Shown here: piece after piece, positions 7,227 through 35,868 of the stretch | Position numbering within the stretch: position 1 is the first letter of the stretch | How the letters are laid out: every line of letters begins with the position of its first letter | Source of the DNA: Bacillota bacterium | GTDB lineage: Bacteria; Bacillota; Negativicutes; Sporomusales; CTSoil-080 | Assembly (NCBI GenBank): GCA_017889625.1 | Contig: JAGGAD010000041.1 | Span: forward strand, 1 to 35,868 | DNA length: 35,868 nucleotides | Direction: 5' to 3' | Translations under genes and position numbers: made by a program | The notes under the pieces: model-generated | Told to the model about the DNA's origin: nothing | Seen by the model: the letters and a program-made list of their open reading frames with translations, nothing else | Database searches by the model: none

Positions 7227-9311
7227 GTGACATCAGCTTCACATGTTACAATCAGAAAAAGGGCGGCATTGCTTTTCCTTTTTGTCACGGTAGTAATGCT
7301 GGGCCTTGTTGGTCGGTTAACCTATCTTCAGTTTATAAAAAGTGAGTGGCTTAGAGAAAATGCCACTGACCAGAGAGTGCGCGAGATACCGGTCGAGGCC
7401 AAGCGGGGAATTATTTATGACCGTAATGGCCGGGAACTGGCGGTAAGTGTAAACACCGAGTCGGTGTATGCCATACCTGCAGAAATTGTTAACGCCGACG
7501 AAACAGCAGCCAAATTGGCTGCTATTTTAACATTAGACGCTGATAAACTGTCGCTTAAACTGAAACGAAGACAATCGTTTACCTGGGTTAAACGTAAAAT
7601 TACGGAATCTGAGGCGTTGGCGCTGAAAAACATTGATTTACCGGGGATTGGCTTGACCCAGGAAGGTCGCCGCCAATATCCGTATGACAATCTGGCTTCA
7701 CATGTATTGGGGTTTACCGGGATTGACAGCCAAGGCCTTGATGGGGTGGAATTAACTTTTGATAGTTACCTAAAAGGGCACCCGGGGGGAATCGTTATTG
7801 AATATGATGCCCGGGGGCAGGAAATCCCATATGTGAGTCACCGGTATGTACCACCAGTCGATGGGCAAAATATCTACTTGACCATTGATGTGGTGATTCA
7901 GCAAATTGTCGAACGGGAATTGGATAAGGCCCTGCGTGAGACTCAGGCAAAGTCTGTATCGATAGTGGTAATTCAGCCTAAAACCGGCGAAATTTTGGCA
8001 TTGGCGAATAAACCTGATTATAATCCTAATAACTTTGCCGAATATCCGCCGATACTGTGGCGTAATGGTGCGATATCGAACGCCTATGAACCTGGTTCAA
8101 CTTTTAAAATTATTACTACGTCAGCGGCGTTAGGTGACAATGTCGTAACGCCTGAAGAAAAATTTTTTGATCCAGGCGAGGTTGAGGTACAGGGCCGCTT
8201 TATCCATTGTTGGAAGGCGGGCGGGCATGGCAGTCAGACTTTTACCCAAGTCGTGCAAAATTCTTGCAATGTAGGTTTTGTCAATGTCGGGCTAAGGCTG
8301 GGGGCGGAAGCGTTTTACCGTTATATTCAAGCCTTTGGGTTTGGCAGGGTTACTGGCATTGACCTTCCTGGCGAAGCTAAGGGAATTATCATTAATCAAG
8401 AGAAAGTTACGCCAATAAATATCGCTACAATGGCAATGGGGCAGAGCATTGCGGTTACTCCGATCCAGCTAATTTGTGCCGCCGGAGCGATAGCGAATGA
8501 CGGCAATTTACTTAGACCGCAGATTGTCAGGGAAGTTAAAGAGAAAGATGGCAATGTTATTCGGCAGTTTCAGCCTGATAGTGTGGGAAATGCTATTAAT
8601 GACAAAACTGCTCAAACGGTAAAAGGAATTTTGGAAAATGTTGTGGAAGAAGGATCTGGAAGAGGTGCCTCTGTTGAAGGCTTCCGAATTGCCGGCAAAA
8701 CTGGGACGGCGCAAAAGGTAGGAAGCGGCGGTTATGTTGCTGGCAAATATGTGGCGTCTTTTGTTGGATTTGCTCCGGCTGATGATCCGGCATTCGCCAT
8801 GTTGGTGATTATTGATGAACCGGTAGGTCCGTACTATGGTGGGGTTATCGCTGCCCCGGTGTTTAATGCGGTTGCCAAGGATATTTTTCAGTATATGAAA
8901 CTGATTCCAACGGCTCAAAAAAACCCGGATCAAGTGGAACATCCGCATGTCATTGTGCCGGGAGTGATCAATCACCTGGTCGCTGATGCGGTGCAGGATT
9001 TGAAGAAAGTTCAACTTCAAGCCCGGGTTGAAGAAACTGGCGACCGGGTCGCGGATCAGGTGCCGAAGCCGGGAAGTCGTGTTCCGGAAGGATCTTTTGT
9101 TTTGCTTTATACTTTGACGCCGCGTTACGCGGTGGGCAATATTACGGTTCCTGATCTAACTGGTAAAAATGAACGGGAGACTGTGGACATTTTGGCAGAA
9201 CTTGGCCTGTTCATCCAGCCTTTTGGACATGGAATCAACGCTGTTAATCAAAATCCTGCGCCAGGCAGTAAGGTGCCGCCAGGGACAACGGTAGTAGTTT
9301 TCTATGAATAA
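7227..9311 (+). CDS. spoVD: Class B penicillin-binding protein with PASTA domains (SpoVD/FtsI type)
   Basis: This is a septal peptidoglycan transpeptidase. An N-terminal membrane anchor (residues 10-30) is followed by a dimerisation domain with AKRGIIYDRNG, and a transpeptidase domain with active-site Ser291 in STFK, SCN at 346 and KTG at 491. Two PASTA repeats close the protein (about 570-694: the VIVPGV and ITVPDL starts, ending NPAPGSKVPPGT). Only one PBP gene is here, so it may serve vegetative division (FtsI/PBP2B), spore cortex (SpoVD), or both; two PASTA repeats fit PBP2B slightly better. GTG 7227 is preferred because GGGGGAG lies six bases before it; the in-frame ATG at 7212 lacks a ribosome site. 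Confidence 0.92.
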   Translation: MTSASHVTIRKRAALLFLFVTVVMLGLVGRLTYLQFIKSEWLRENATDQRVREIPVEAKRGIIYDRNGRELAVSVNTESVYAIPAEIVNADETAAKLAAILTLDADKLSLKLKRRQSFTWVKRKITESEALALKNIDLPGIGLTQEGRRQYPYDNLASHVLGFTGIDSQGLDGVELTFDSYLKGHPGGIVIEYDARGQEIPYVSHRYVPPVDGQNIYLTIDVVIQQIVERELDKALRETQAKSVSIVVIQPKTGEILALANKPDYNPNNFAEYPPILWRNGAISNAYEPGSTFKIITTSAALGDNVVTPEEKFFDPGEVEVQGRFIHCWKAGGHGSQTFTQVVQNSCNVGFVNVGLRLGAEAFYRYIQAFGFGRVTGIDLPGEAKGIIINQEKVTPINIATMAMGQSIAVTPIQLICAAGAIANDGNLLRPQIVREVKEKDGNVIRQFQPDSVGNAINDKTAQTVKGILENVVEEGSGRGASVEGFRIAGKTGTAQKVGSGGYVAGKYVASFVGFAPADDPAFAMLVIIDEPVGPYYGGVIAAPVFNAVAKDIFQYMKLIPTAQKNPDQVEHPHVIVPGVINHLVADAVQDLKKVQLQARVEETGDRVADQVPKPGSRVPEGSFVLLYTLTPRYAVGNITVPDLTGKNERETVDILAELGLFIQPFGHGINAVNQNPAPGSKVPPGTTVVVFYE

Positions 9312-9374
9312 TTGCTCCGGTTAATTTTGTAAACTATGGTAATAATATCAGTAGAATACCCAGGAGGGACGGCT

Positions 9375-10868
9375 ATGGGCAAGAGTATACGTGAAATAAT
9401 TTTGCAAATACCTCAAGCTGAGGTTCAGGGAGACTCTGATAAGTTAGTTACGACAATTACCCAGGATTCGCGTGCTGCTAAGCCTGGTGCATTATTTGTA
9501 GCATTAAGTGGTAGTAAGGTAGATGGACACGATTTTATCAATGCCGCTTGCGAGCAAGGTGCGGCGGCGGTGTTGGTAGAAAAGGAGGTTCAGACAAGGC
9601 CGGGCGTGACAGTGATAAAGGTTCCGGATACCAGGGCAGCTATGCTGGTCATTGCGCCGTATTTTTATGATTATCCCAGCCGGAAGTTGCGGCTGATTGG
9701 AATAACGGGTACGAATGGCAAGACCACGACTACCCATTTGCTAAGAGCCGTATTAATGCAAGCCGGTTTTCGCACCGGGCTTATTGGAACTATTCACAGT
9801 CTGATTGATCAGCGGGTTTTGCCGATGAAAAATACTACCCCGGATGTGATTGAATTGCAGGCACTGTTCGCTGAAATGGTGGCTGAACAGGTAGAGTACG
9901 CGATAATGGAAGTTTCCTCCCATGCGATTGCGTTAAGGCGGATAAGCGGCTGTGAGTTTGATGTAGCTGGATTTACGAATTTGACCAGAGATCATTTGGA
10001 TTTTCATATTACTTTAGAAAATTATTGTCAGACTAAGGCTAATTTATTCGGTATGCTGGGAGCAGACGATTCAGTCAAAACAGGTAAGTCGGCAGTAGTA
10101 AATGTTGATGATCCTGCGGGCGAGGCAATGTTACAAAAGAGCAAAGGCAGTCGGACCATTACCTATGGTGTAAAGTGTCAGGCTGACATTATGGCTCAAA
10201 ATATTAAAGTTCGATCCGATGGGGCGGCATTCCGGGTTATTGGGCCGTTTGGCGTAATAGATTTGGATTTAAAAATTACCGGGGTGTTTAATGTTTATAA
10301 TGTATTAGCCGCTATTGGTATTGCTTGGGCTGAAGGCGTAAATATCAGCTCGATTAAGGCGGCGCTGGAGTCATTCACCAGCGTGCCGGGGCGGTTTGAA
10401 TTGGTTGATGCCGGTCAGCCGTTTGCTGTAATTGTCGATTATGCCCACACCCCTGATGGACTGGAAAACATATTAAAGACAGCCCGGCAGATCGCGGAGA
10501 ACCGGATTATTGTTGTGTTTGGCTGCGGCGGTGATCGGGATCGTACTAAGCGGCCAATTATGGGTAAGCTGGCGATGGAGTATGGGGATGTGGTAATTGC
10601 AACCTCAGATAATCCTCGCAGTGAGGATCCGTCCGGTATACTCCAGGAGATTGAAGTTGGACTAAAAGCTGGTCAGAATGGCGGCAAGGGTTATGAGATT
10701 GTTATTGACCGACGGGAGGCAATTACCAAGGCGTTAGGTATTGCAAACCCGGGCGATGTTGTAATTATTGCCGGGAAAGGCCATGAGACTTATCAGATTC
10801 TAAAAGATAGAACAATTGATTTTGATGACCGGGAAATAGCTCGGCAAATTATTTGGGAGATGAGGTAA
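9375..10868 (+). CDS. murE: UDP-MurNAc-L-Ala-D-Glu:meso-diaminopimelate ligase MurE
   Basis: MurE adds the third residue of the peptidoglycan stem peptide in the cytoplasm. The 497-residue product carries the Mur ligase P-loop TGTNGKTTTT near residue 112, the substrate-binding TTPD, and DNPRSEDP near residue 412. The DNPR motif is the hallmark of enzymes that use meso-diaminopimelate rather than lysine. The ATG at 9375 follows CAGGAGGGAC. The murF start codon overlaps its stop codon by one base. Confidence 0.96.
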   Translation: MGKSIREIILQIPQAEVQGDSDKLVTTITQDSRAAKPGALFVALSGSKVDGHDFINAACEQGAAAVLVEKEVQTRPGVTVIKVPDTRAAMLVIAPYFYDYPSRKLRLIGITGTNGKTTTTHLLRAVLMQAGFRTGLIGTIHSLIDQRVLPMKNTTPDVIELQALFAEMVAEQVEYAIMEVSSHAIALRRISGCEFDVAGFTNLTRDHLDFHITLENYCQTKANLFGMLGADDSVKTGKSAVVNVDDPAGEAMLQKSKGSRTITYGVKCQADIMAQNIKVRSDGAAFRVIGPFGVIDLDLKITGVFNVYNVLAAIGIAWAEGVNISSIKAALESFTSVPGRFELVDAGQPFAVIVDYAHTPDGLENILKTARQIAENRIIVVFGCGGDRDRTKRPIMGKLAMEYGDVVIATSDNPRSEDPSGILQEIEVGLKAGQNGGKGYEIVIDRREAITKALGIANPGDVVIIAGKGHETYQILKDRTIDFDDREIARQIIWEMR

Positions 10869-12232
10869 TGGCTGAGTTCACAATTAGTGAAGTAGTGGCG
10901 GCGACCGGCGGCAGCTTGGCGGGGGCGGCGTGTGCGAAGCCTTTCACCGGCGTTTCCACCGATACCCGGACGATTAAGCCGGGTAATTTGTTTATTGCGC
11001 TTAGCGGCGAAAATTTTGATGGCCATAATTTTATTAACCAGGCCGTTGCGCAAGGGGCTGGCGGGGTTATTATCAGTAAACAAGTTACTTTGAAATCCGA
11101 AAGTGTGGCTGTTATTACGGTTGGTGATACGCTCAAGGCTTTGCAGCAATTGGCTGGCTTTCATCGCCAGCGGTTTACGATTCCGGTAATTGCGATTACT
11201 GGGTCTAATGGGAAGACCACAACAAAAGATATGATTGCCACAATGTTGGCCGGTGATTTTAATGTTTTAAAAACTGAGGCTAACTATAATAATGATATTG
11301 GTTTGCCGCTAACACTGCTAAAGCTTACGCCGGAGCACCAAGTGGCTGTTGTGGAAATGGGCATGCGGGGCCGTGGCGAAATAAAACGGCTGGCGGAAAT
11401 TGCGCGGCCAACGGTTGGAGTAATTACCAATGTTGGTGAAACTCATCTGGAACTTTTGGGAACGATAGAAAATATTGCTGCGGCTAAAGGTGAATTAATT
11501 GAGATGATTAGTCCCGGCGGTACGGCAATATTGAATACAGATATACCCTTGGTAAAAGGTATGACGGCTTTAACCCAGGGAAAAGTAGTACTATATGGGT
11601 TAAATTCAGGGGCTGCTGTGCGGGCCGTTAATATTCAGGCCAACAGTCAGGGGCTTAAGTTTGATTGCGTTTGTCCAGACGGTCAGGTTGCTGTGGTACT
11701 GGAGGTTGTCGGAAAACACAATATTTATAATGCCTTGGCGGCGGTTGCCGTTGGGCGGGAACTAGGACTTAACTTGAACAAAATCGCCGATGACCTAAAA
11801 AAATTTGTGGCTGGGTCAATGCGTTTACATATTGAAACCAAGGGCGAATATACCATTATCAATGATGCGTATAATGCCAGTCCTTTATCGATGCAGGCGG
11901 CGATTGAAACCTTGGCCACTGTCGCTAAAGGCCGGAAAGTAGCCGTACTTGGCGATATGCTGGAGCTAGGGGAGGCTGCGGTAGAGGCACATCGTCGTAT
12001 TGGCAAAAAATTAGCGGCCGAAGGGGTTCAAGTGGTTATTACCCTAGGAGAACTGGCTCGAAACATTGCTAATGTGGCGCTAAAGGATCGCATCTCAGTT
12101 ACGGTGGCCTGCAAGAATCATGAGGAAGCTAAAGAAGCGCTGAGTAAACTTATTCGGCCTGGTGATACTGTCTTGTTGAAGGGGTCACGAGGGATGCGGA
12201 TGGAAAAAATCCTAGAAATATTTAAACCATAA
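10868..12232 (+). CDS. murF: UDP-MurNAc-tripeptide:D-Ala-D-Ala ligase MurF
   Basis: MurF adds D-Ala-D-Ala to complete the UDP-MurNAc-pentapeptide. The 454-residue product has the MurF N-terminal domain (DTRTIKPGNLFIAL), the P-loop ITGSNGKTTTKDM, EMGMRGRGEI, and the C-terminal NDAYNASPLSM and GSRGMRMEKI. The start sits in a TAATG overlap with murE and uses the GAGATGAGG just upstream, a sign of translational coupling. Confidence 0.96.
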   Translation: MAEFTISEVVAATGGSLAGAACAKPFTGVSTDTRTIKPGNLFIALSGENFDGHNFINQAVAQGAGGVIISKQVTLKSESVAVITVGDTLKALQQLAGFHRQRFTIPVIAITGSNGKTTTKDMIATMLAGDFNVLKTEANYNNDIGLPLTLLKLTPEHQVAVVEMGMRGRGEIKRLAEIARPTVGVITNVGETHLELLGTIENIAAAKGELIEMISPGGTAILNTDIPLVKGMTALTQGKVVLYGLNSGAAVRAVNIQANSQGLKFDCVCPDGQVAVVLEVVGKHNIYNALAAVAVGRELGLNLNKIADDLKKFVAGSMRLHIETKGEYTIINDAYNASPLSMQAAIETLATVAKGRKVAVLGDMLELGEAAVEAHRRIGKKLAAEGVQVVITLGELARNIANVALKDRISVTVACKNHEEAKEALSKLIRPGDTVLLKGSRGMRMEKILEIFKP

Positions 12233-12264
12233 ATTTTGCTGTATTGTGTAACGGAGGGGTTTTT

Positions 12265-13257
12265 ATGCAACTAACGCAGGAGTTATATTATGCTGCGGCT
12301 GTAGCTTTTTTTGTCGCTATTGCCTTGGGACCGGTAGTAATCCCGATCTTAAGACGGCTTAAGTTTAGGCAAAGTATTCGGGAAGAAGGTCCCAAGCGTC
12401 ATTTGGCCAAAGCTGGAACACCCACAATGGGAGGGATTATTATTTTGGCGGCGCTGACGGTGTCAGTGCTATTCTTTGCCGGTAAAAATGCTGAGGTTTG
12501 GCTGGCGTTGTTTGTAACTTTAGGCCATGGCCTTATCGGCTTTTTGGATGATTTTATTAAAGTTGTACTTAAACGCAATTTAGGCCTTAAAGCTAAACAG
12601 AAACTTCTCGGTCAGATTATTATGGCGGTTGCGATGGCGTATATTGCCACGACATATTTTGGGCGGGGGACTGAAGTGTGGTTTCCAGTGATTAATATCA
12701 CGCTTGATTTTGGGGCCTTGTATTATATCCTTATTTTTCTGGTGCTTGTCGGTACTACTAACGCGGTCAATTTAACGGATGGGTTGGATGGTCTGGCGGC
12801 TGGGACTGTTACGATTGCGGCGTTGGCTTATGCAATCATTGCGTTCAGTTTGGCTAAGTTACCGTTGGCGATATTTTGTGTGGCGCTTGCCGGTGCGACC
12901 TTAGGTTTTCTCCGATATAATGCGCACCCCGCAAGAATTTTTATGGGAGATACCGGATCGTTAGCTATTGGTGGAGCACTGGCGGCAGTGGCGGTTATGA
13001 CAAAAACCGAACTGCTGTTAATTGTTGTCGGTGGTGTTTTTGTCATTGAAGCTTTGTCGGTGGTCATTCAGGTTGCTTCGTTTAAGTCTACCGGTAAGCG
13101 GGTTTTTAAAATGAGCCCGATTCATCATCATTTTGAGTTATCAGGCTGGTCGGAAACAAAAGTTGTTAAGGCTTTTTGGCTGGCTGGATTTTTATTTGCG
13201 ATTGTTGCGTTGATTATACTTGTAGCTGGCAAGGGAGGTCTTGGCGTTGGAGTTTAA
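12265..13257 (+). CDS. mraY: Phospho-N-acetylmuramoyl-pentapeptide-transferase MraY
   Basis: MraY is the polytopic membrane enzyme that makes lipid I from UDP-MurNAc-pentapeptide and undecaprenyl phosphate. The 330-residue product has about ten hydrophobic segments and the family motifs: KRHLAKAGTPTMGG, FLDDFIKV, NAVNLTDGLDGL, FMGDTGSLAIGG and SPIHHHFE. The ATG at 12265 is five bases after GGAGGGG. Its 3' end overlaps murD by 11 bases. Confidence 0.96.
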   Translation: MQLTQELYYAAAVAFFVAIALGPVVIPILRRLKFRQSIREEGPKRHLAKAGTPTMGGIIILAALTVSVLFFAGKNAEVWLALFVTLGHGLIGFLDDFIKVVLKRNLGLKAKQKLLGQIIMAVAMAYIATTYFGRGTEVWFPVINITLDFGALYYILIFLVLVGTTNAVNLTDGLDGLAAGTVTIAALAYAIIAFSLAKLPLAIFCVALAGATLGFLRYNAHPARIFMGDTGSLAIGGALAAVAVMTKTELLLIVVGGVFVIEALSVVIQVASFKSTGKRVFKMSPIHHHFELSGWSETKVVKAFWLAGFLFAIVALIILVAGKGGLGVGV

Positions 13258-23134: not shown

Positions 23135-24092
23135 ATCGTTGCCAATAGGCTAACGTTTGTTCTCGAATTACTGGCAGCAATTCATAGAGAGATTTGCCGG
23201 GGCAAAGGGTTAGGTTTAAATCGCGATGCCCAAGGAGGGTGGAGTCATCGGGAGATAAATTGTAAATATGGCACAGGGCGGCTATTAATTTTGCGGCTGA
23301 TTCGAGTTGCGGGGTGGTAGGGGTTGCGTCTTCAAAGTTGCCAATGAGGTTAATCCCAATCGATTGGGCATTATAGTGCTGCGTATGGGCGCCTACCGCT
23401 TCGCGGGGACGGCCGCGTTCAATACTGCCGTCTTTATGAATGACATAATGATAACCAATCCCGGACCAACCATTAGCTAGATGCCAGCGATGGACTTCGG
23501 CAGCAGTTACCTCATCATTGGTTAGTCCGATATGGTGGATTACGAATAAAGTTGTTGCCTCACGAGTATCCAGCGGACCGAAGGTTAGATTAGTTTCTTT
23601 AATGGCTAAATCGGCTTCCTTTATTGCGGTTGGCGAGCTAAATGTTCCAATATCAACTTTTAAACGATAAGCCCCAAGAGAAAGAAGGCGTGGGATCAGG
23701 GCATAGCGCAATTCTGAGTAAGGGTTGTTGTCGTTTAAGCGAAAGCTAAGGCGGCAGTCCTGCTTTGTGATTTGTTTGATTTCAAGGCGTTTGACAAATT
23801 GATTGTTACAGGGGATATTTCCTGCTAATGGGCCAACTTTGGTATTTTTTAAGATAAAATCAATCTGTTGGGTAGACTGTTGCTCAATGATCTCACATTG
23901 AGCGGAAATGTAAAATTCAATGGAAAAATAGGTTTGGTTATCATTAGTCATAACGGTAGATCCCTTGCTGATATAGGTAATGGCCGGGGCTTGGCTGGCA
24001 GCTAAAGCGCTGCAGCTAGAAAGTAAGTTTTGTCCCAGCCATAAGGTTGAACATACGCCAAATGATTTTAATAAAAACTGTCTTCGCTTCAT
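23133..24092 (-). CDS. Exported N-acetylmuramoyl-L-alanine amidase (amidase_2/PGRP type)
   Basis: The 319-residue product starts with MKRRQFLLKSFGVCST, a twin-arginine-like leader (RRQFLLK) with a hydrophobic stretch and an ALAA cut site around residue 32. Residues 40-150 look like a beta-rich AMIN-type wall-binding domain. Residues 175-310 form the amidase_2 zinc hydrolase: FVIHHIG, GWSGIGYHYVIHKDG, INLIGNFED, LLGHRDLN and CPG, giving the His, His, Cys zinc ligands. It should cleave the MurNAc-L-Ala bond of peptidoglycan outside the cytoplasmic membrane. The ribosome site (TTGGTGA) is weak. Confidence 0.88.
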   Translation of the reverse strand: MKRRQFLLKSFGVCSTLWLGQNLLSSCSALAASQAPAITYISKGSTVMTNDNQTYFSIEFYISAQCEIIEQQSTQQIDFILKNTKVGPLAGNIPCNNQFVKRLEIKQITKQDCRLSFRLNDNNPYSELRYALIPRLLSLGAYRLKVDIGTFSSPTAIKEADLAIKETNLTFGPLDTREATTLFVIHHIGLTNDEVTAAEVHRWHLANGWSGIGYHYVIHKDGSIERGRPREAVGAHTQHYNAQSIGINLIGNFEDATPTTPQLESAAKLIAALCHIYNLSPDDSTLLGHRDLNLTLCPGKSLYELLPVIREQTLAYWQR

Positions 24093-30329: not shown

Positions 30330-32006
30330 CTAGAGTTTTCCCGAGCGCAATATTGCATATATTACCCATACAAACATTAGTATTGCAACCAAAAAACCAA
30401 TTTCGACGCTGGGAAAGTGCCCTAAGATGGAGTATTGCCCCATTATCGATGAACTAATAATGATGCTCCCCATAATAATGCTAAACGCTAATAGAATTAT
30501 ACTTACGGCTAGGCGATTGCTGATTCGATCGAGATGGCTTAAAAAAAATTCCGTTTCAGCCAGAGCTATGTTTATATGAAACCGCCCCTGATTTACCAGG
30601 GTACCTAACTTTTTGACGTTTTTGGGAATATTGTTGAAAATATCGCCAAAATCAATTGCAGTTTTCCAGAGATATTCAGCAATTGCTTGAGGCTGGATTC
30701 TTTCTAATAATAGTTTTTCGCCAAAAGGCTCAACAAGATCAAAAATACTTAACTTAGGGTCAAGTTTTTTTACAATGCCTTCTACCGTCAGTAAGGCCTT
30801 GCCGACCAATACTAAGTCAGCGGGAATTCGTATCATATGTTTCTGGGCGATGAGAAAAAAATCGGTAATTGCTTCGCCAATACTGATTTTACTTAACGGG
30901 ACGCCATAATAAGTATCGATTAAAAGATCAATATCATCTTGTACTTGCCGGAGATTTACTTGGGGTGGAACAATGCCGATTCGGAGCAGTGCTTTGACTA
31001 AATCATCGCTACTATTACGTTTAAGGCCAATCATAAGTGCAGACAAGCAATTTTTCATCTCGGGGCCAAGTCTTCCGACCATACCAAAATCTAAAAAACC
31101 AATAACCTCATTAGGTAGCACAATGACATTTCCCGGATGGGGGTCGCCGTGGAAAAATCCGCTGATAAAAATTTGCTGGAAAATCCCTTTAGCAAAGCGA
31201 CTTGCGACCAAGAGAAGGTTAGAACCTTGCTGTGTAAGGATAGTACTTTGGTTGATCTTTACGCCTTGAAGAAATTCGGTTGTAAGGATTTTTTTTGTAG
31301 AGTAATCCCAATAGACCGTAGGAATATAATAATCCTTCTGATTTTTTAGCTGAATAGAAATTTTCTCGGTATTGCGGGCTTCGATAGTGTAGTCGAGTTC
31401 CTTACGAAGCGACTTGGCAAATTCATCGACCATATCAACAATCTGATAGCGTTTGGCCCAGGAAAACCGATTCTCAACAGTTACCGCTATCTCAAATAAA
31501 ATTTCCAAGTCGGTTTGAATCGTGGCAGCAATGTCGGGGCGTTGGATTTTTACCGCTACTTTTTGTCCGGTTGTTAAAGTTGCCACATGAACCTGGCCAA
31601 TTGAAGCCGCCGCTAAGGCCTGGGAATCAAAGTCCAGAAATAGTTCCTCAATGCTAGTGCCCAGTTCTTCGAGGATTAACCGTTGGACTTGTTCGTAGGG
31701 AAACGCCAATACTTCGTCCTGCAATTTTTCCAAGTGAACAATGATTTCTCGCGGTAAAATATCTGGTCTAGTACTGGCGATCTGACCTAACTTTATATAA
31801 GTAGGACCTAATTGCTGCAGGGCGAGTCGAATCCTTTCGCCAACATCGGTCGGGTTTTCGGAGGGTGGTTTTATCCATAGACGTTCATAATAAGGAAACT
31901 TTTGGACTAGATCCATTCCTTCGATAAGATAGCCAAACCCTTGGTTGGCTAACACCGTAGCAATCTCACGATAACGTTTTATATGCCGAAATTGTTTACC
32001 AAACAT
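30330..32006 (-). CDS. AarF/UbiB (ABC1/ADCK) family kinase-like protein
   Basis: The 558-residue product belongs to the atypical kinase family of UbiB/ADCK: PPSENPTDVGERIRLALQQLGPTYIKLGQ with the KxGQ motif, AAASIGQVHVA (the Ala-rich nucleotide loop), FFHGDPHPGN (catalytic loop) and VIGFLDFGMVG (DFG equivalent). Two hydrophobic helices near the C-terminus (residues 505-555) anchor it in the membrane. UbiB supports ubiquinone synthesis in proteobacteria; the role in a Firmicute like this is unclear, perhaps lipid or quinone handling. CGGAGAA precedes the ATG. No terminator separates it from the convergent SMP-30-like gene. Confidence 0.92.
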   Translation of the reverse strand: MFGKQFRHIKRYREIATVLANQGFGYLIEGMDLVQKFPYYERLWIKPPSENPTDVGERIRLALQQLGPTYIKLGQIASTRPDILPREIIVHLEKLQDEVLAFPYEQVQRLILEELGTSIEELFLDFDSQALAAASIGQVHVATLTTGQKVAVKIQRPDIAATIQTDLEILFEIAVTVENRFSWAKRYQIVDMVDEFAKSLRKELDYTIEARNTEKISIQLKNQKDYYIPTVYWDYSTKKILTTEFLQGVKINQSTILTQQGSNLLLVASRFAKGIFQQIFISGFFHGDPHPGNVIVLPNEVIGFLDFGMVGRLGPEMKNCLSALMIGLKRNSSDDLVKALLRIGIVPPQVNLRQVQDDIDLLIDTYYGVPLSKISIGEAITDFFLIAQKHMIRIPADLVLVGKALLTVEGIVKKLDPKLSIFDLVEPFGEKLLLERIQPQAIAEYLWKTAIDFGDIFNNIPKNVKKLGTLVNQGRFHINIALAETEFFLSHLDRISNRLAVSIILLAFSIIMGSIIISSSIMGQYSILGHFPSVEIGFLVAILMFVWVIYAILRSGKL

Positions 32007-32179
32007 AGCGTTCTCCGATTTAGCGATAATTACATGAAGTAAAGTAAGCGAGCCTAGCGGTATAGACCCTGGTGAGCTATTGACAATAGTATAACTGATA
32101 ATAGGTATTTTAATTAAGTTGTACGGCGGAGGCGTAATCCCTTGCTATCAGTTTTTCATTATACTTCTCAATAACTAAA

Positions 32180-32530
32180 GGGCTGTTGCACTAAGTAGAA
32201 ATTTACCAGTCCTATTCCTGTTTGGGGAAAAATCAGCCAGCCCTAAGACTGATGCTCAAGATTTTAGTTTACGCCTATATGAATAGTATCTATTCTTCCC
32301 GCCAGATTGAGCTTGCCTGTAGACGCGATATCAATTTTATGTATCTGCTTGAAAATGCTACGTCACCAGATCATACAACCATTGCCCGATTTAGGTCGCT
32401 GCATTTTGCACCTTTTGCGATTCAGATCATGCCGCAGACTCCAATTAATTGTTTACTTAACTAAATGTGAAATATGCCGAGAAAACCAGCTAAGCCGTGT
32501 CGATACCTTGGTTGTCCCAACTTAACCTAC
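32180..32530 (+). mobile_element. Remnant of an IS1182-type insertion sequence
   Basis: GGGCTGTTGCACTAAGTAG (32180-32198) resembles the terminal repeat of IS1182/IS5-like elements, and a transposase fragment follows directly. No matching right end is visible, and the middle and 3' parts of the element are gone. The right boundary given is approximate. Confidence 0.6.
32222..32464 (+). pseudogene. IS1182 family transposase fragment
   Basis: The frame reads MLKILVYAYMNSIYSSRQIE, then LACRRDINFMYLLENA and PDHTTIARFRSLHFAP, which is the N-terminal (DUF772-like) helical domain of IS1182 transposases. About 50 N-terminal residues are missing upstream, and after HFAP the sense degenerates; a trace (CEICRENQ, like the usual GEISRENIF) continues in another frame at about 32464-32490. 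The catalytic DDE region is absent, so it is dead. Confidence 0.75.
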
Positions 32531-32626
32531 GCATCTTATTGCAAAAAACAACTGGTCATATCATAAGCACCGAAATCATGGAGCAAATCACGAGGACGAT
32601 ACAGATATAAATCGGGGTTGAGAAGT

Positions 32627-33196
32627 TTATGTTTGTTTTCTAAAAGGCTTTATATATGGCATGAGTAGAGGAATATAATCTTTTGGAAAAAGTGAGATCG
32701 CAATTTCCGTAATTTCTGGAGGCGATTCTTGCATGCTGTTATCCATCCATAAAAGTAAGAAATTGTAAATTCCTCCTGCGTGGTAATATATTCGAAATTT
32801 TTCTTTTTGGTTAGAAATTTGATCGCAAAGTGTTTTTTCAAAATAGGCGTTAACGACTTCTAGAAGCAAATATGATAACCCATTTCTTTGGATAAGCAGC
32901 AACTGCGACTTATATCTGTAAAAATGACAAAAAATAATATTTAGGTAATTTTTAGAGTCGGTATACTTCGAGTCCTTGAACTCTGAAATATATGAAAACA
33001 GGATGTTTTCCAATGAGAACTTTAAAACAGCTTCTTTCGATGCGAAATTGCGATAGTATGTTGAGCGATTAACGCCTGCTTTTTTTGTAATCTCACTTAT
33101 GGAAATGTCGTTATAATTTTTATTTACCATCAGTAATAGCAGCGCTTCAGAAATATATTCTTTTATCAATTGGGTAGAAACATTTTTCCTTTTCAT
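32627..33196 (-). CDS. TetR family transcriptional regulator
   Basis: The 189-residue product has a TetR-type helix-turn-helix in residues 8-55: ISEALLLLMVNKNYNDISISEITKKAGVNRSTYYRNFASKE-like order, with GVNRSTYYRNF as the recognition helix. The C-terminal ligand domain is of the TetR_C-type with YYHAGGIYNFLLLWM. It is divergent from the metallo-beta-lactamase-fold gene, with repeated TTTAAGCAACAAA sites between them, so it probably represses itself and that operon. Its inducer is unknown. AT content is higher than in the main cluster. Confidence 0.88.
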   Translation of the reverse strand: MKRKNVSTQLIKEYISEALLLLMVNKNYNDISISEITKKAGVNRSTYYRNFASKEAVLKFSLENILFSYISEFKDSKYTDSKNYLNIIFCHFYRYKSQLLLIQRNGLSYLLLEVVNAYFEKTLCDQISNQKEKFRIYYHAGGIYNFLLLWMDNSMQESPPEITEIAISLFPKDYIPLLMPYIKPFRKQT

Positions 33197-33232
33197 TTAA
33201 GCAACAAACCTCCATGTTGTGTTGCAATTTAG
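33196..33232. promoter_or_regulatory. Operator-like site at the TetR gene start
   Basis: TTTAAGCAACAAA (33196-33208) abuts the tetR start codon, and an imperfect inverted copy (TGTGTTGCAATTTA) ends at about 33231. The same 13-mer recurs at 33281. Confidence 0.5.
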
Positions 33233-33252
33233 GTATCATAAAGTTTTTGTTC

Positions 33253-33306
33253 TTGAATACTAAAAAATGTAGAAGTATAATTTAAGCAACAAATGTCGCT
33301 TAAATT
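33253..33306 (+). promoter_or_regulatory. Promoter and operator of the MBL-SfsA operon
   Basis: TTGAAT (33253-33258) and TATAAT (33276-33281) are 17 bases apart. The palindrome AATTTAAGC-N10-GCTTAAATT (33279-33306) overlaps the -10 box and start site and contains the repeat TTTAAGCAACAAA. This layout fits repression by the adjacent TetR protein. Confidence 0.7.
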
Positions 33307-33346
33307 ATATAGCGGACTTGTAATTAAGTCAAAGGAGAAATGATAT

Positions 33347-33985
33347 ATGAACCTGATTTATAACGATTTGTACCAGTTTTCTATTCATATACCGCCTATG
33401 CAGTTTACCATTCATCAGTATCTACTCATGTGTGCTGACCCAATCCTTGTTTCAACAGGTACTATGCAGCAAGCAGAGCATATTTTGCCAGAGATAAAAA
33501 AATTGTTAAAAGGACAGACATTGAAATATATTCTTGTTTCACATATGGAATCGGATGAATGCGGCGGTCTCATCGCTTTTCAGAAAGAGTATCCTGACGT
33601 TATTACTGTTTGTTCTCAGCTTTGTGCAAGAGAATTGCCTGGCTTTGGCTATAATGGGAAAATACTCGCTAAAAAACAGGACGATTTGCTTGACGGAAAC
33701 GGATTTTCTTTAAAATTCATTGATTATCCTTCTGAAGTTCATCTACAGAATGGCCTTGCCTTTTATGAAGAAAACAGCAAAATTTTCTTTAGTGGAGATT
33801 TGATGCTGCGTTTTGGTGATGCGGTCGGAAAAACCATGGATAGTTTCTGGAAGGAGGAAATTGCCGCCATTGACTTGGAACGCATTCCAAATGCTGAAAA
33901 GCTTGAAGTTTTGCAGAAAAGTTTGTTGCAACTTAATCCGGATTTAATCGCAGTAGGACATGGCTTTTGCATTAAGTGCAAATAA
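33347..33985 (+). CDS. Metallo-beta-lactamase-fold protein (ODP di-iron type)
   Basis: The 212-residue product has the MBL fold with motifs SHMESDECGG (residues 65-74), FFSGDLM and VGHGFC. HxExD rather than HxHxDH places it near the oxygen-binding di-iron (ODP/flavodiiron) branch, but the usual next His is Glu and there is no flavodoxin domain. It may bind iron and sense or reduce oxygen or NO; this is inference. The ATG follows AAAGGAG, and the gene leads an operon with sfsA under the TetR-type promoter. Confidence 0.82.
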   Translation: MNLIYNDLYQFSIHIPPMQFTIHQYLLMCADPILVSTGTMQQAEHILPEIKKLLKGQTLKYILVSHMESDECGGLIAFQKEYPDVITVCSQLCARELPGFGYNGKILAKKQDDLLDGNGFSLKFIDYPSEVHLQNGLAFYEENSKIFFSGDLMLRFGDAVGKTMDSFWKEEIAAIDLERIPNAEKLEVLQKSLLQLNPDLIAVGHGFCIKCK

Positions 33986-33987
33986 TC

Positions 33988-34737
33988 ATGATGAACATGA
34001 AAAAGGATGCACTTATATTTGAATCACCTTTGACAGAAGGTGTTATTCAGAAAAGAAAAAGCCAGTTTACAATGATTGTTGAAGTATGTGGGAAAATCCT
34101 CAGTTGCCATTGCCCGACCACGGGAAGAATCGGTAATCTTGATATAAGTGGCAGACCGTGCCTTTTATCCAAAAGCAGTGATCCTAATCGGAAAACACTG
34201 TATACGGTAGAGGCGATCTCCTTAAATCGGCCAGAAGATAAAAATAAATCTTGGATCGGTATTAATCAAAATGCCGCAAATCGTTATGTGGAACATTATC
34301 TTGTAAATGGTGGTTTTGAAGATATGGTCGGACAGGGTAATATAGTCCTTAGAGAACAATTTATCGGCATTTCAAAATTGGATTTTCTTGTTGGAAATAC
34401 ATATATTGAAGTGAAGACGCCGCTTCAGCATTTACAAATTGAGTATCCAGATTATATAAGAACAAAAAAGAACATGCCGTTTTCTTCAACAGCGCGTTTT
34501 GTAAAGCACATTACAGAGTTGACTAATAGCTTGCAGAACCATCAAAGAGCAATTCTATTAATTTGCTTTATTTACGACAACCCCGGTTTTCGAATAATTG
34601 AGAGAAGCATTAATTACGAACAGGTAAAAGAGGCGGTAAACAGAAGTACGAAAAAGGGAGTTGAATCGTGGCAGGCAAACTTCAAGATTAATCAGTCGGG
34701 TATAACTCTTGAGAAATATTTCAGATTAGATATTTAA
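33988..34737 (+). CDS. sfsA: SfsA family protein (DNA/RNA nuclease fold)
   Basis: The 249-residue product has the SfsA N-terminal OB-like part (CHCPTTGRIGNL) and a PD-(D/E)xK core, GISKLDFLVG followed by TYIEVKTPL, with the Asp and EVK expected for a nuclease active site. SfsA was named for sugar fermentation in E. coli; its true role is not settled. The start is uncertain: GTG 33976 overlaps the upstream gene, ATG 33988, 33991 and 33997 are in frame, and no ribosome site is strong. Tight spacing implies co-transcription with the MBL-fold gene. Confidence 0.82.
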   Translation: MMNMKKDALIFESPLTEGVIQKRKSQFTMIVEVCGKILSCHCPTTGRIGNLDISGRPCLLSKSSDPNRKTLYTVEAISLNRPEDKNKSWIGINQNAANRYVEHYLVNGGFEDMVGQGNIVLREQFIGISKLDFLVGNTYIEVKTPLQHLQIEYPDYIRTKKNMPFSSTARFVKHITELTNSLQNHQRAILLICFIYDNPGFRIIERSINYEQVKEAVNRSTKKGVESWQANFKINQSGITLEKYFRLDI

Positions 34738-34801
34738 AAATCTGTTAGCGGGAATGAGTCGGCATACACGGTTAGCGTTTTTTATTTGAAATAGCGTTAA
34801 G

Positions 34802-34894
34802 CTGCATACAGATGATCGTGAAAATGCGTATGAGCGTGGATATAGTAGTCAGTGGCAAACAGCGCGTAAGCAGTATCAGGAGTATTGCTTCTAG
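34802..34894 (+). pseudogene. HNH-endonuclease-like gene fragment
   Basis: A 30-codon open stretch reads DDRENAYERGYSSQWQTARK and then QYQEYCF before TAG. RGYxSxWQxARKxY is the segment that normally precedes the zinc-binding HNH core in phage-type HNH endonucleases. No start codon region or HNH core is present. It looks like an excision scar of a larger gene or prophage. Confidence 0.4.
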
Positions 34895-34921
34895 AAAGAT
34901 TAAATTATGATGGTGTCACTC

Positions 34922-34978
34922 TCGACAATTGCCGTACGTCATATTATAATACATGTAAGATTTCTTACTTCTTACATG
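34922..34978 (+). promoter_or_regulatory. Promoter and palindromic operator of the AbrB-RelE module
   Basis: TCGACA (34922-34927) and TATAAT (34945-34950) are 17 bases apart. Directly after lies CATGTAAGA-N9-TCTTACATG (34952-34978), a perfect 9-bp inverted repeat just before the antitoxin ribosome site, the usual place for antitoxin autorepression. Confidence 0.7.
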
Positions 34979-34989
34979 GAGACGATATT

Positions 34990-35328
34990 ATGACCGAATA
35001 TGATATGACGGTTAGCAGTAAAGGGCAATTCGTTTTGCCGAAGGAAGTTCGTGAAAAATTTAAGCTGTCGGCAGGCAGCAAGGTTAAACTTATAGTCGAT
35101 GGAGAACAGATCATTATAAAGCCGCATACCGTAGCAGACCAACTACAAGACATTATTCGTGCTGATCTTGCTAAAGAAGGTAAGACTGTAAATGAAGATA
35201 CTGTAAAAGAATATCAGGCAAAAATAGCACAAGCCGTAGACGCTCTTGTTGTTGAAGCTGATAGAGAATATAATGCTAAACAGTATATTACGTTAGCTCA
35301 GCTAAAAAAGGAAAACGCCGATGTATGA
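34990..35328 (+). CDS. AbrB/MazE-type antitoxin
   Basis: The 112-residue product starts with a SpoVT/AbrB swapped-hairpin DNA-binding domain (VSSKGQFVLPKEVREKFKL, then GSKVKLIVDGEQIIIKP) and continues in a charged helical tail that would wrap the toxin. ATG 34990 is chosen because the domain begins there and GGAG precedes it; a longer in-frame start has no ribosome site. It overlaps the toxin start by eight bases. It should bind the palindrome upstream and the toxin, but the toxin gene is broken. Confidence 0.85.
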   Translation: MTEYDMTVSSKGQFVLPKEVREKFKLSAGSKVKLIVDGEQIIIKPHTVADQLQDIIRADLAKEGKTVNEDTVKEYQAKIAQAVDALVVEADREYNAKQYITLAQLKKENADV

Positions 35329-35605
35329 ACTTATCATTCTTAATTCAGCGGCAAAAGAACTGCGAAAATTGGATAAACCCGTTCGGGAGAAGCTCATAAG
35401 AACCTTTGATAAATTAGCAGAAAATCCTTATATTGGTGAAATACTAAAAGGTGATTTGACAACAATCTATTCGTATCATTTGAAGGTATCAAAAGTTGAA
35501 TATCGTATTGCTTACCAGATTAAATAGCAAGAAGTTGTTGTTATTGTAATGCAGATTGGAAGAAGAAAGAATTTCTATTCTGAACTAAAAAAACGGCTAA
35601 AATGA
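35321..35605 (+). pseudogene. RelE/ParE-type toxin interrupted by an in-frame amber codon
   Basis: The frame MYELIILNSAAKELRKLDKP, then FDKLAENPYIGEILKGDL and YRIAYQIK is a RelE-family toxin. It meets TAG at codon 69 (35525-35527). Reading on in the same frame gives QEVVVIVMQIGRRKNFY and SELKKRLK before TGA at 35603, exactly the expected C-terminal strand and helix. The full length would be 94 residues; the truncated 68-residue product lacks the C-terminal Arg/Tyr positions that RelE toxins use on ribosome-bound mRNA, so it is probably inactive. Confidence 0.8.
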
Positions 35606-35640
35606 AAAACAGGCTAGTGTAATTCAGCCTGTTTTTGTTT
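35605..35640 (+). terminator. Rho-independent terminator after the toxin-antitoxin module
   Basis: AAAACAGGCT (35606-35615) pairs with AGCCTGTTTT (35626-35635) over a 10-base loop, followed by TGTTTT. It begins at the end of the full-length toxin frame, which supports that frame as the ancestral gene. Confidence 0.75.
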
Positions 35641-35642
35641 TG

Positions 35643-35682
35643 TGATGACATGGGGGTACGGTTCTGATTTGTCACAAAAGTG
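35643..35682. repeat. REP-like palindrome
   Basis: TGACA (35646-35650) and TGTCA (35670-35674) flank GGGGGTACGGTTCT. Palindromes with a GGTACGGTTCT-like core often accompany Y1 (REP-associated) transposase genes in Firmicutes, and a transposase tail follows here. Recognised by pattern only. Confidence 0.35.
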
Positions 35683-35760
35683 ATAGATGGATTATTGATT
35701 CGGCAAATCCAACGAGCAACCGGAGTAGCAAGGGGACGTGGCAAAAAGCTGATAAAGTAG
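35680..35760 (+). pseudogene. C-terminal tail of a REP-associated (Y1) transposase
   Basis: The frame GLLIRQIQRATGVARGRG before TAG at 35758 matches the helix-turn-helix tail (SIRQIxRxTGxSRG) that ends many REP-associated tyrosine transposases. The catalytic part is absent, so this is a relic. Confidence 0.4.
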
Positions 35761-35815
35761 GATCGACACTTTCGCAGTAAAATTCATAGAAGCAAGACGG
35801 TTGCGTCTTGTCTTA

Positions 35816-35848
35816 CAAAAGATTGGCGATAAGCCAGTCTTTTTTGTT
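35816..35848 (+). terminator. Terminator hairpin near the right edge
   Basis: AAAAGATTGGC (35817-35827) pairs with GCCAGTCTTTT (35833-35843, one G-T pair), followed by TTTG. A second hairpin, CAAGACG-GTTG-CGTCTTG (35793-35810), sits just before it. No gene ends here, so it may terminate a leader or small RNA. Confidence 0.55.
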
Positions 35849-35868
35849 TGCAAGCCATTTCATCGCCA

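Follow-up and report, generated by a model that had tools for sequence, protein, structure and literature searches.

Near the right end of the window, by which we mean the whole contig analysed here (35,868 bases, G000:C4; accession JAGGAD010000041.1) from a genome of 3.3 Mb in 113 contigs (G000), which we take to belong to the class Negativicutes, three open genes encode a TetR-family regulator on the minus strand and, divergently on the plus strand, a stand-alone di-iron protein of the ODP family with the metallo-beta-lactamase (MBL) fold and a protein of the SfsA family. That the local TetR controls these genes through GCAACA sites is a prediction for which comparison of related loci gives good support. 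More tentatively, the locus may be read as a TetR-controlled gas/redox-stress operon, patchily inherited and probably mobile, in which SfsA would serve as a nucleic-acid accessory; this is the reading that we prefer. The original prediction, made on the same DNA, had described a TetR gene divergent from a gene pair for an ODP-like metal protein with an HxExDE motif and an SfsA protein of the PD-(D/E)xK type, and all of these assignments hold, with Pfam matches above or at cut-off. Its observation is confirmed and goes beyond chance, and the outline of its interpretation is partly supported. The genes and the sites between them are the following.

32627-33196, minus strand: TetR-family regulator of 189 amino acids (aa), divergent from ODP-SfsA (Pfam TetR_N 1.5e-7, TetR_C_8 9.2e-6)
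33201-33225: O2, a 25-nucleotide (nt) inverted repeat, GCAACA-N13-TGTTGC, which covers the TetR leader and a Shine-Dalgarno-like GGAGG
33253-33281, plus strand: promoter-like site for ODP-SfsA, TTGAAT-17-TATAAT, consensus match 10/12
33276-33309: near-perfect palindrome with 16-nt arms, 94% complementary and 2 nt apart, which contains O1 between two opposed -10-like hexamers
33286-33299: O1, the short palindrome GCAACAAATGTCGC, directly behind the -10-like box of ODP
33304-33332, minus strand: promoter-like site for tetR, TTGACT-17-TATAAT, consensus match 11/12, overlapping the ODP-SfsA site
33347-33985, plus strand: stand-alone ODP-family di-iron MBL-fold protein of 212 aa (Pfam PF19583 4.3e-14)
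33991-34737, plus strand: SfsA-family protein of 248 aa with an OB domain and a PD-(D/E)xK domain (Pfam SfsA 7.9e-15, SfsA_N 6.6e-14)

Operator-like sites that accompany the TetR gene

Each strand of the intergenic region carries a TATAAT with a -35-like hexamer 17 nt away, so that the promoters, should they be real, would overlap and point at a single site; promoter-like sites in the region overall are not in excess (11, against 9.9 in shuffles). It had been claimed that a 13-mer, TTTAAGCAACAAA, is shared by both promoters and lies once in a perfect palindrome over the -10 box. Two exact copies are indeed present (33196-33208 and 33281-33293, within 14-nt repeats 85 bp apart), but the upstream copy sits at the TetR start codon and leader and not at a -10 box, and comparison of TetR loci identifies GCAACA/TGTYGC, not the 13-mer, as the conserved unit. 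Similarly, the palindrome does hold opposed TATAAT hexamers but is only near-perfect. Beyond its two copies TTTAAGCAACAAA has no window position within one mismatch, and when up to three mismatches are allowed its 27 matches equal the shuffle level (mean 27.15), so that only the exact copies are meaningful. For O1, too, the window has no further position with at most one mismatch.

Five TetR loci were compared: the window, L012 (from a metagenome-assembled genome, MAG, named Massilimicrobiota), L014 (genome G066), L015 (genome G298) and the locus in genome G312; a TetR search of 350 genomes of the class gave a match in four. The regulators that adjoin ODP genes in L012, L014 and L015 are 40-43% identical to the window TetR, and that of G312 is 41% identical. 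O2, as the pattern GCRACA-N12/13-TGTYGC, is present in 5/5 loci, and O1 is exact in three (window, L012, L015) and has one mismatch in two (L014, G312). Its shared form across the TetR-ODP intergenic regions is GCRACANNTGTYGC (one mismatch in L014), located just behind a -10-like hexamer. When the 400 nt upstream of 21 ODP genes were examined, an exact O1 was present in three, an O1 with one base changed in one, and O2 in four, all of them TetR-linked; the other 17 genes, which lack this TetR and include seven plasmid copies, some of them near-duplicates, have neither O2 nor O1 there, even with one O1 mismatch allowed. In the four TetR leaders outside the window the 8-mer GCAACAAA occurs nine times, against a mean of 0.12 in dinucleotide-preserving shuffles (0/5000 reach nine); the 8-mer was chosen after L012, L014 and L015 had been seen, so the count is not blind for these three. 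The G312 leader, found after the motif had been named, contains it twice (shuffle mean 0.03; 0/5000 reach two) and the looser GCRACA three times, a number reached by 13/5000 shuffles.

On the protein side, TetR residues A40, G41, V42, R44, Y47, Y48, R49 and F51, which we take to lie in the recognition helix, are invariant in all five proteins. Conserved inverted-repeat sites are found between regulator and target, as for a TetR-regulated divergent operon. An RNA element at the TetR leader was considered as well and set aside: Rfam gave no match up to E 0.1 in window positions 32000-35868, and leader folds beat all 200 shuffles in L012 (z -4.2) and L014 (z -3.5, where the fold is that of the O1 palindrome) but not in the window (z -1.1) or L015 (z 0.4). 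Since folding is not consistent among the loci, a DNA operator is preferred, and O2 might still have a role as RNA.

The ODP and SfsA proteins

Membership of the window protein in the di-iron ODP family is well supported. It reaches 53.3 bits against PF19583 (Pfam gathering cut-off 27.2), with the domain at residues 21-206 of 212 as the sole domain and no flavodoxin match in Pfam; Lactamase_B is also matched (2.2e-6). The HxExDE motif is HMESDE at residues 66-71, and the predicted metal ligands H66, E68, D70, E71, H132, D151 and H205 are invariant in 18/18 rows of an alignment that leaves out partial, duplicate and 24% identical Shinella sequences. The Shinella relative likewise has HxExDE, and the flavodiiron-size relatives examined have HxExDH in 7/7. 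A profile search of the PDB gave flavodiiron proteins at 4e-12 and ODP at 1.7e-8, and the best of the NCBIfam matches, all of which are below cut-off, is flavorubredoxin (1.2e-7). An AlphaFold2 model from 3 sequences had a pLDDT of 77 (43-55 for the other four models); Foldseek ranks 1-28 with this model are flavodiiron, diflavin or ODP chains (TM-scores 0.56-0.66 by query length, root-mean-square deviation >5 A), followed by PqsE and hydrolytic lactamases.

Judged by its sequence, the window SfsA is a diverged subfamily of the SfsA family. It scores 55.3 bits for SfsA and 52.2 bits for SfsA_N (Pfam cut-offs 22.8 and 25) and stays below the NCBIfam equivalog TIGR00230 (82.4 bits, cut-off 126.45). 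The predicted PD-(D/E)xK residues D131 and E140-V-K142 are invariant in 4/4 aligned SfsA sequences, and D131, E140 and K142 match the ID...EVK motif that, according to excerpts of PMC1189080, is predicted for the family together with nuclease activity. At E at most 1e-30 the subfamily occurs in 3/379 genomes of the class, in all three directly downstream of ODP, and in one of 396 phylum genomes, which is the window's own. Among the 13 ODP genomes, that is, those from the class and phylum searches, PF03749 is matched in nine, and eight of these encode, at another locus, an SfsA with a high score (127-171 Pfam bits); G005 and G298 have a high-scoring SfsA plus a diverged one, and the window's own genome has only the diverged one (56.6 bits).

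Recurrence, neighbours and history of the module

Neighbours were identified by comparing the open reading frames (ORFs) of the loci with the three window proteins and later with SfsA, TetR and an FMN (flavin mononucleotide)-binding protein. TetR is divergent to ODP in the window, L012, L014 and L015. The MBL-SfsA pair, for which a neighbourhood search had been proposed, does recur: SfsA is downstream of ODP in the window, in G298, where all three genes are found as TetR-ODP-SfsA, and in G005, where the pair stands under a WYL regulator and without this TetR; a WYL regulator is also upstream of ODP in L043. The chance that 3/3 SfsA genomes of the class fall at random among its seven ODP genomes is about 4 in a million. 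Shared ancestry or joint transfer is possible, and the co-occurrence is therefore no proof of joint function; a connection of SfsA with gas or redox stress would be drawn from this recurrence.

In the window 2-5 nt separate the ODP stop from the SfsA start with either of two in-frame ATG codons (33991 or 33988), and a GTG start at 33976 would overlap ODP. The gap in G298 is about 12 nt if ATA is the start: its SfsA frame (L048 2230-2247) has no ATG, GTG or TTG from the ODP stop to residue 28, and an in-frame ATA lies 8 nt behind GGAG, so this SfsA may begin at a rare start codon or have an incomplete OB domain. Between the window and G298, identity is highest for SfsA (72%), the other two proteins reaching 53% and 43%.

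A different neighbour, an FMN-binding protein of the Desulfovibrio type (123-125 aa; profile match to the 1axj/1flm family 3.4e-46), adjoins ODP downstream on the same strand in L036, L039 and L041 and divergently in L040. L036 is a conjugative IncX3 plasmid, on which (8983-10088) the ODP relative is followed by the FMN-binding protein gene. The window's own genome has such a protein away from ODP (C2:36554-36925, 52% identical), and it is present somewhere in 6/13 ODP genomes, own included. This arrangement suggests that some ODP relatives may form a two-protein (split) flavodiiron reductase of oxygen or nitric oxide (NO) with the FMN-binding protein. As a separate observation, the ODP relative of G102 (L021 6112-7356) lies between two small ORFs with a GG motif, which we presume to be like Nif11-type leader peptides.

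ODP relatives are patchily distributed. At 1e-25 they occur in 7/380 class genomes, and the phylum search gave 7/398 genomes (own included in both); two MAG contigs of the genome_contigs collection have them as well. Neither the genus neighbour (G001, 65% complete) nor the family neighbour (G002) has a relative at 1e-25. Two scans of viral_contigs gave no ODP or SfsA relative, and the phages collection gave one partial ODP match (26%). Two phage records have a TetR match; in the one examined (33% identical) only one half-site lies upstream, and the nearby ORFs listed include no ODP; on plasmids there is no TetR relative at 1e-15. ODP relatives at 1e-8 are present in 368/72,556 plasmid records (Klebsiella 140, Escherichia 88, Salmonella 72, Enterococcus 12), and 50 plasmid rows spread down the ranking comprise 47 at 41.6-48.6% identity and three weaker ones.

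In a tree of 23 ODP rows, with two long branches and nine open forks, the four TetR-linked ODPs fall within a group of seven rows (support 100/100). The other three rows of the group are L013 and L021, neither of which has this TetR, and L023, where the contig stops at the ODP start. SfsA-linked ODPs are located both inside this group (window, L015) and outside it (L005, of G005), and SfsA was therefore gained or lost more than once. The module has a G+C content of 0.32-0.38, the other genes measured one of 0.38-0.49, and codon likelihood gives nothing unusual for the module genes. The patchy distribution and the lower G+C make transfer likely, in agreement with the original prediction. That prediction had also placed the block among insertion sequence (IS) and phage relics, which is correct as far as one IS1182 fragment is concerned but finds no counterpart in structural phage genes, since no PHROGs structural family was matched by the ten window proteins scanned. 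The flanks of the module contain two features.

32222-32464: IS1182 transposase fragment
about 34993-35527: MazE/AbrB-like and ParE/RelE-like gene pair

Annotated IS1182 transposase genes also adjoin ODP in two Enterococcus plasmids, L031 having one on a single side (10743-12371) and L032 one on each side (8052-9680 and 10800-12428), and IS1182 is possibly a shared vehicle. The frame of the ParE/RelE-like toxin, behind the MazE/AbrB-like antitoxin gene, stops at an in-frame TAG (35525) before the end of the profile, and the gene looks broken. PHROGs matches, some of them ambiguous, comprise lysis families for an amidase (23136-24092; 9.7e-35), a family of unknown function, phrog_14982, for the TetR (9.5e-26), and 'moron' families for the antitoxin-like and RelE-like genes. 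A reading as a defence system was rejected, the sole PADLOC match being a partial one to LmuA at 0.004.

Proposed model, alternatives and known systems

The model takes as given the genes, the ligand residues, the recurrence of the pair and the sites that accompany TetR, and from these we infer TetR binding, promoters, iron, a reaction, an FMN partner and an action of SfsA. The TetR protein would bind GCAACA half-sites; at O1, between two overlapping divergent promoters, it would shut both, and at O2 it would further limit its own expression, until some ligand or stress releases it. ODP, as a flavodiiron core without the flavodoxin domain, would most likely reduce or trap oxygen or NO, with electrons from a separate flavoprotein, for which the candidate is the Desulfovibrio-type FMN-binding protein, next door in some relatives and elsewhere in the own genome. 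The diverged SfsA, with its predicted nuclease residues intact, would probably act on nucleic acid under the same stress. The stress- or oxygen-linked nucleic acid processing unit of the original prediction would be a fair guess.

Several observations weigh against this model. G312 has the TetR and the sites, yet its only ODP match lies in a 408-aa frame of flavodiiron size; no stand-alone ODP was found in this genome, which is 91% complete and whose contig ends about 0.5 kb behind TetR. The strict O1 pattern occurs at one place in the own genome, but so does a backward control of the pattern, which shows only that no second strict O1 exists; a single genomic place is in itself no rarity. Glu71 in place of the His of HxExDH means that iron binding and turnover may differ from those of flavodiiron proteins. 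Adjacency of the FMN-binding protein to ODP is confined to loci outside the TetR clade, with L039 and L041 both from one genus, and 7/13 ODP genomes, including G298 and G066, have no match to it at 0.01, so that a two-protein reductase is not general unless other flavoproteins serve.

Further such points concern SfsA and speak for an alternative explanation, in which TetR and ODP form the functional unit and SfsA is a passenger that joined by chance or shared mobility and takes part in no shared pathway. SfsA of this kind is present in 3/13 ODP genomes; G066 has TetR-ODP and no SfsA beside it, and the search of the L012 genome gave no SfsA match, a weak negative for a MAG whose contig ends just behind ODP. 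In G005, where this TetR is absent, ODP and SfsA are separated by a 125-nt gap with a strong hairpin (L005 2134-2262; -38.5 against -19.7 kcal/mol in shuffles, z -5.8, 0/200), perhaps an attenuator or terminator. Two members of the subfamily, one from a Rhizobium plasmid (47%) and one from Bacillus phage SP-15 (L064 4992-5717; 40% identity with the window SfsA), have no ODP close by, the phage copy lying among small phage genes, and SfsA-linked ODPs fall in two parts of the ODP tree. The empty L012 search and the missing FMN-binding proteins slightly raise the odds of this explanation, which we nevertheless regard as unlikely, considering the downstream position of SfsA in every class genome that has the subfamily, the short gaps in the window and, if ATA is the start, in G298, and the stronger conservation of SfsA between these two.

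Another alternative is that ODP is a hydrolytic metallo-enzyme which inactivates a xenobiotic sensed by TetR. Control by a TetR protein is typically seen in drug response; in 6/8 plasmid stretches (L031-L038) the ODP relative has resistance genes (qnrS1, aminoglycoside, erm(B), narAB, sul3 or others) no more than about 10 kb away; and both the Lactamase_B match and the hydrolytic structures behind Foldseek rank 28 point in this direction. However, the motif of the hydrolytic metallo-beta-lactamases is HxHxDH and all 18 aligned ODP rows have HxExDE, di-iron oxidoreductases come first in both the structural and the profile searches, and the resistance genes may be bystanders on IS-rich plasmids; we give this alternative little credence. 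It is about as improbable that ODP is a sensor and not an enzyme, with oxygen, NO or iron at the di-iron site switching the SfsA nuclease on or off in the way that Treponema ODP acts on chemotaxis. Excerpts of PMC7666581 and PMC7785958 describe stand-alone ODPs of PF19583 as oxygen sensors, and the genes are tightly coupled in the window and G298 with site residues kept in both proteins, but the FMN-protein neighbours of some relatives argue for turnover, this SfsA is rare among ODP genomes, and an interaction between ODP and SfsA is purely hypothetical. The boldest form of this idea has an equally slim chance: a gas- or iron-gated nuclease, in which a mobile stand-alone HxExDE di-iron sensor would control the PD-(D/E)xK nuclease SfsA, so that oxygen, NO or iron decide when nucleic acid is cut, while in sister lineages, and on a conjugative plasmid too, the same module would be wired to the FMN protein to form a split flavodiiron reductase.

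The results point to a stand-alone HxExDE di-iron subfamily whose neighbours are interchangeable, being either an FMN protein or a nuclease; on plasmids its relatives are often annotated only as 'MBL fold metallo-hydrolase'. The conserved sites predict exact binding positions of the regulator, and the ODP-SfsA operon provides a setting in which SfsA can be tested; in excerpts of PMC1189080 the nuclease activity of SfsA is a predicted one. Word searches of the literature returned no paper that joins SfsA with TetR and metallo-hydrolase or MBL fold metallo-hydrolase with qnrS1 and plasmid, nor metallo-beta-lactamase together with SfsA or sugar fermentation stimulation; SfsA and flavodiiron proteins were co-mentioned, in the text portions returned, only as separate items.

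Among known systems, the ODPs of Treponema denticola and Thermotoga maritima (PF19583) are alike in being stand-alone MBL-fold domains without flavodoxin; PDB entries 6qrq/6qwo and 6qnm are matched by both sequence profile and Foldseek, at about 20% identity over the model. The T. denticola gene is coupled to a chemoreceptor homologue and its product is described as an oxygen sensor in excerpts of PMC7666581, whereas the window protein has TetR and SfsA as neighbours and no chemoreceptor gene beside it. In excerpts of PMC7785958, which also describe the flavodiiron ligands, T. maritima ODP is reported to have Gln at motif 5 for the missing His, in contrast to HxExDE in the window. Flavodiiron proteins (FprA, ROO, NorV) share the di-iron core and give the best profile matches; the window ODP differs from them in lacking the fused C-terminal flavodoxin and in having Glu71 for the last His of HxExDH. 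The zinc motif of the hydrolytic metallo-beta-lactamase superfamily is replaced by H66-x-E68-x-D70-E71. The family of the Desulfovibrio FMN-binding protein adjoins ODP in four loci and is absent from the window operon. With SfsA (COG1489, PF03749), finally, the window protein shares the OB plus PD-(D/E)xK architecture and the predicted catalytic residues, as a diverged relative.

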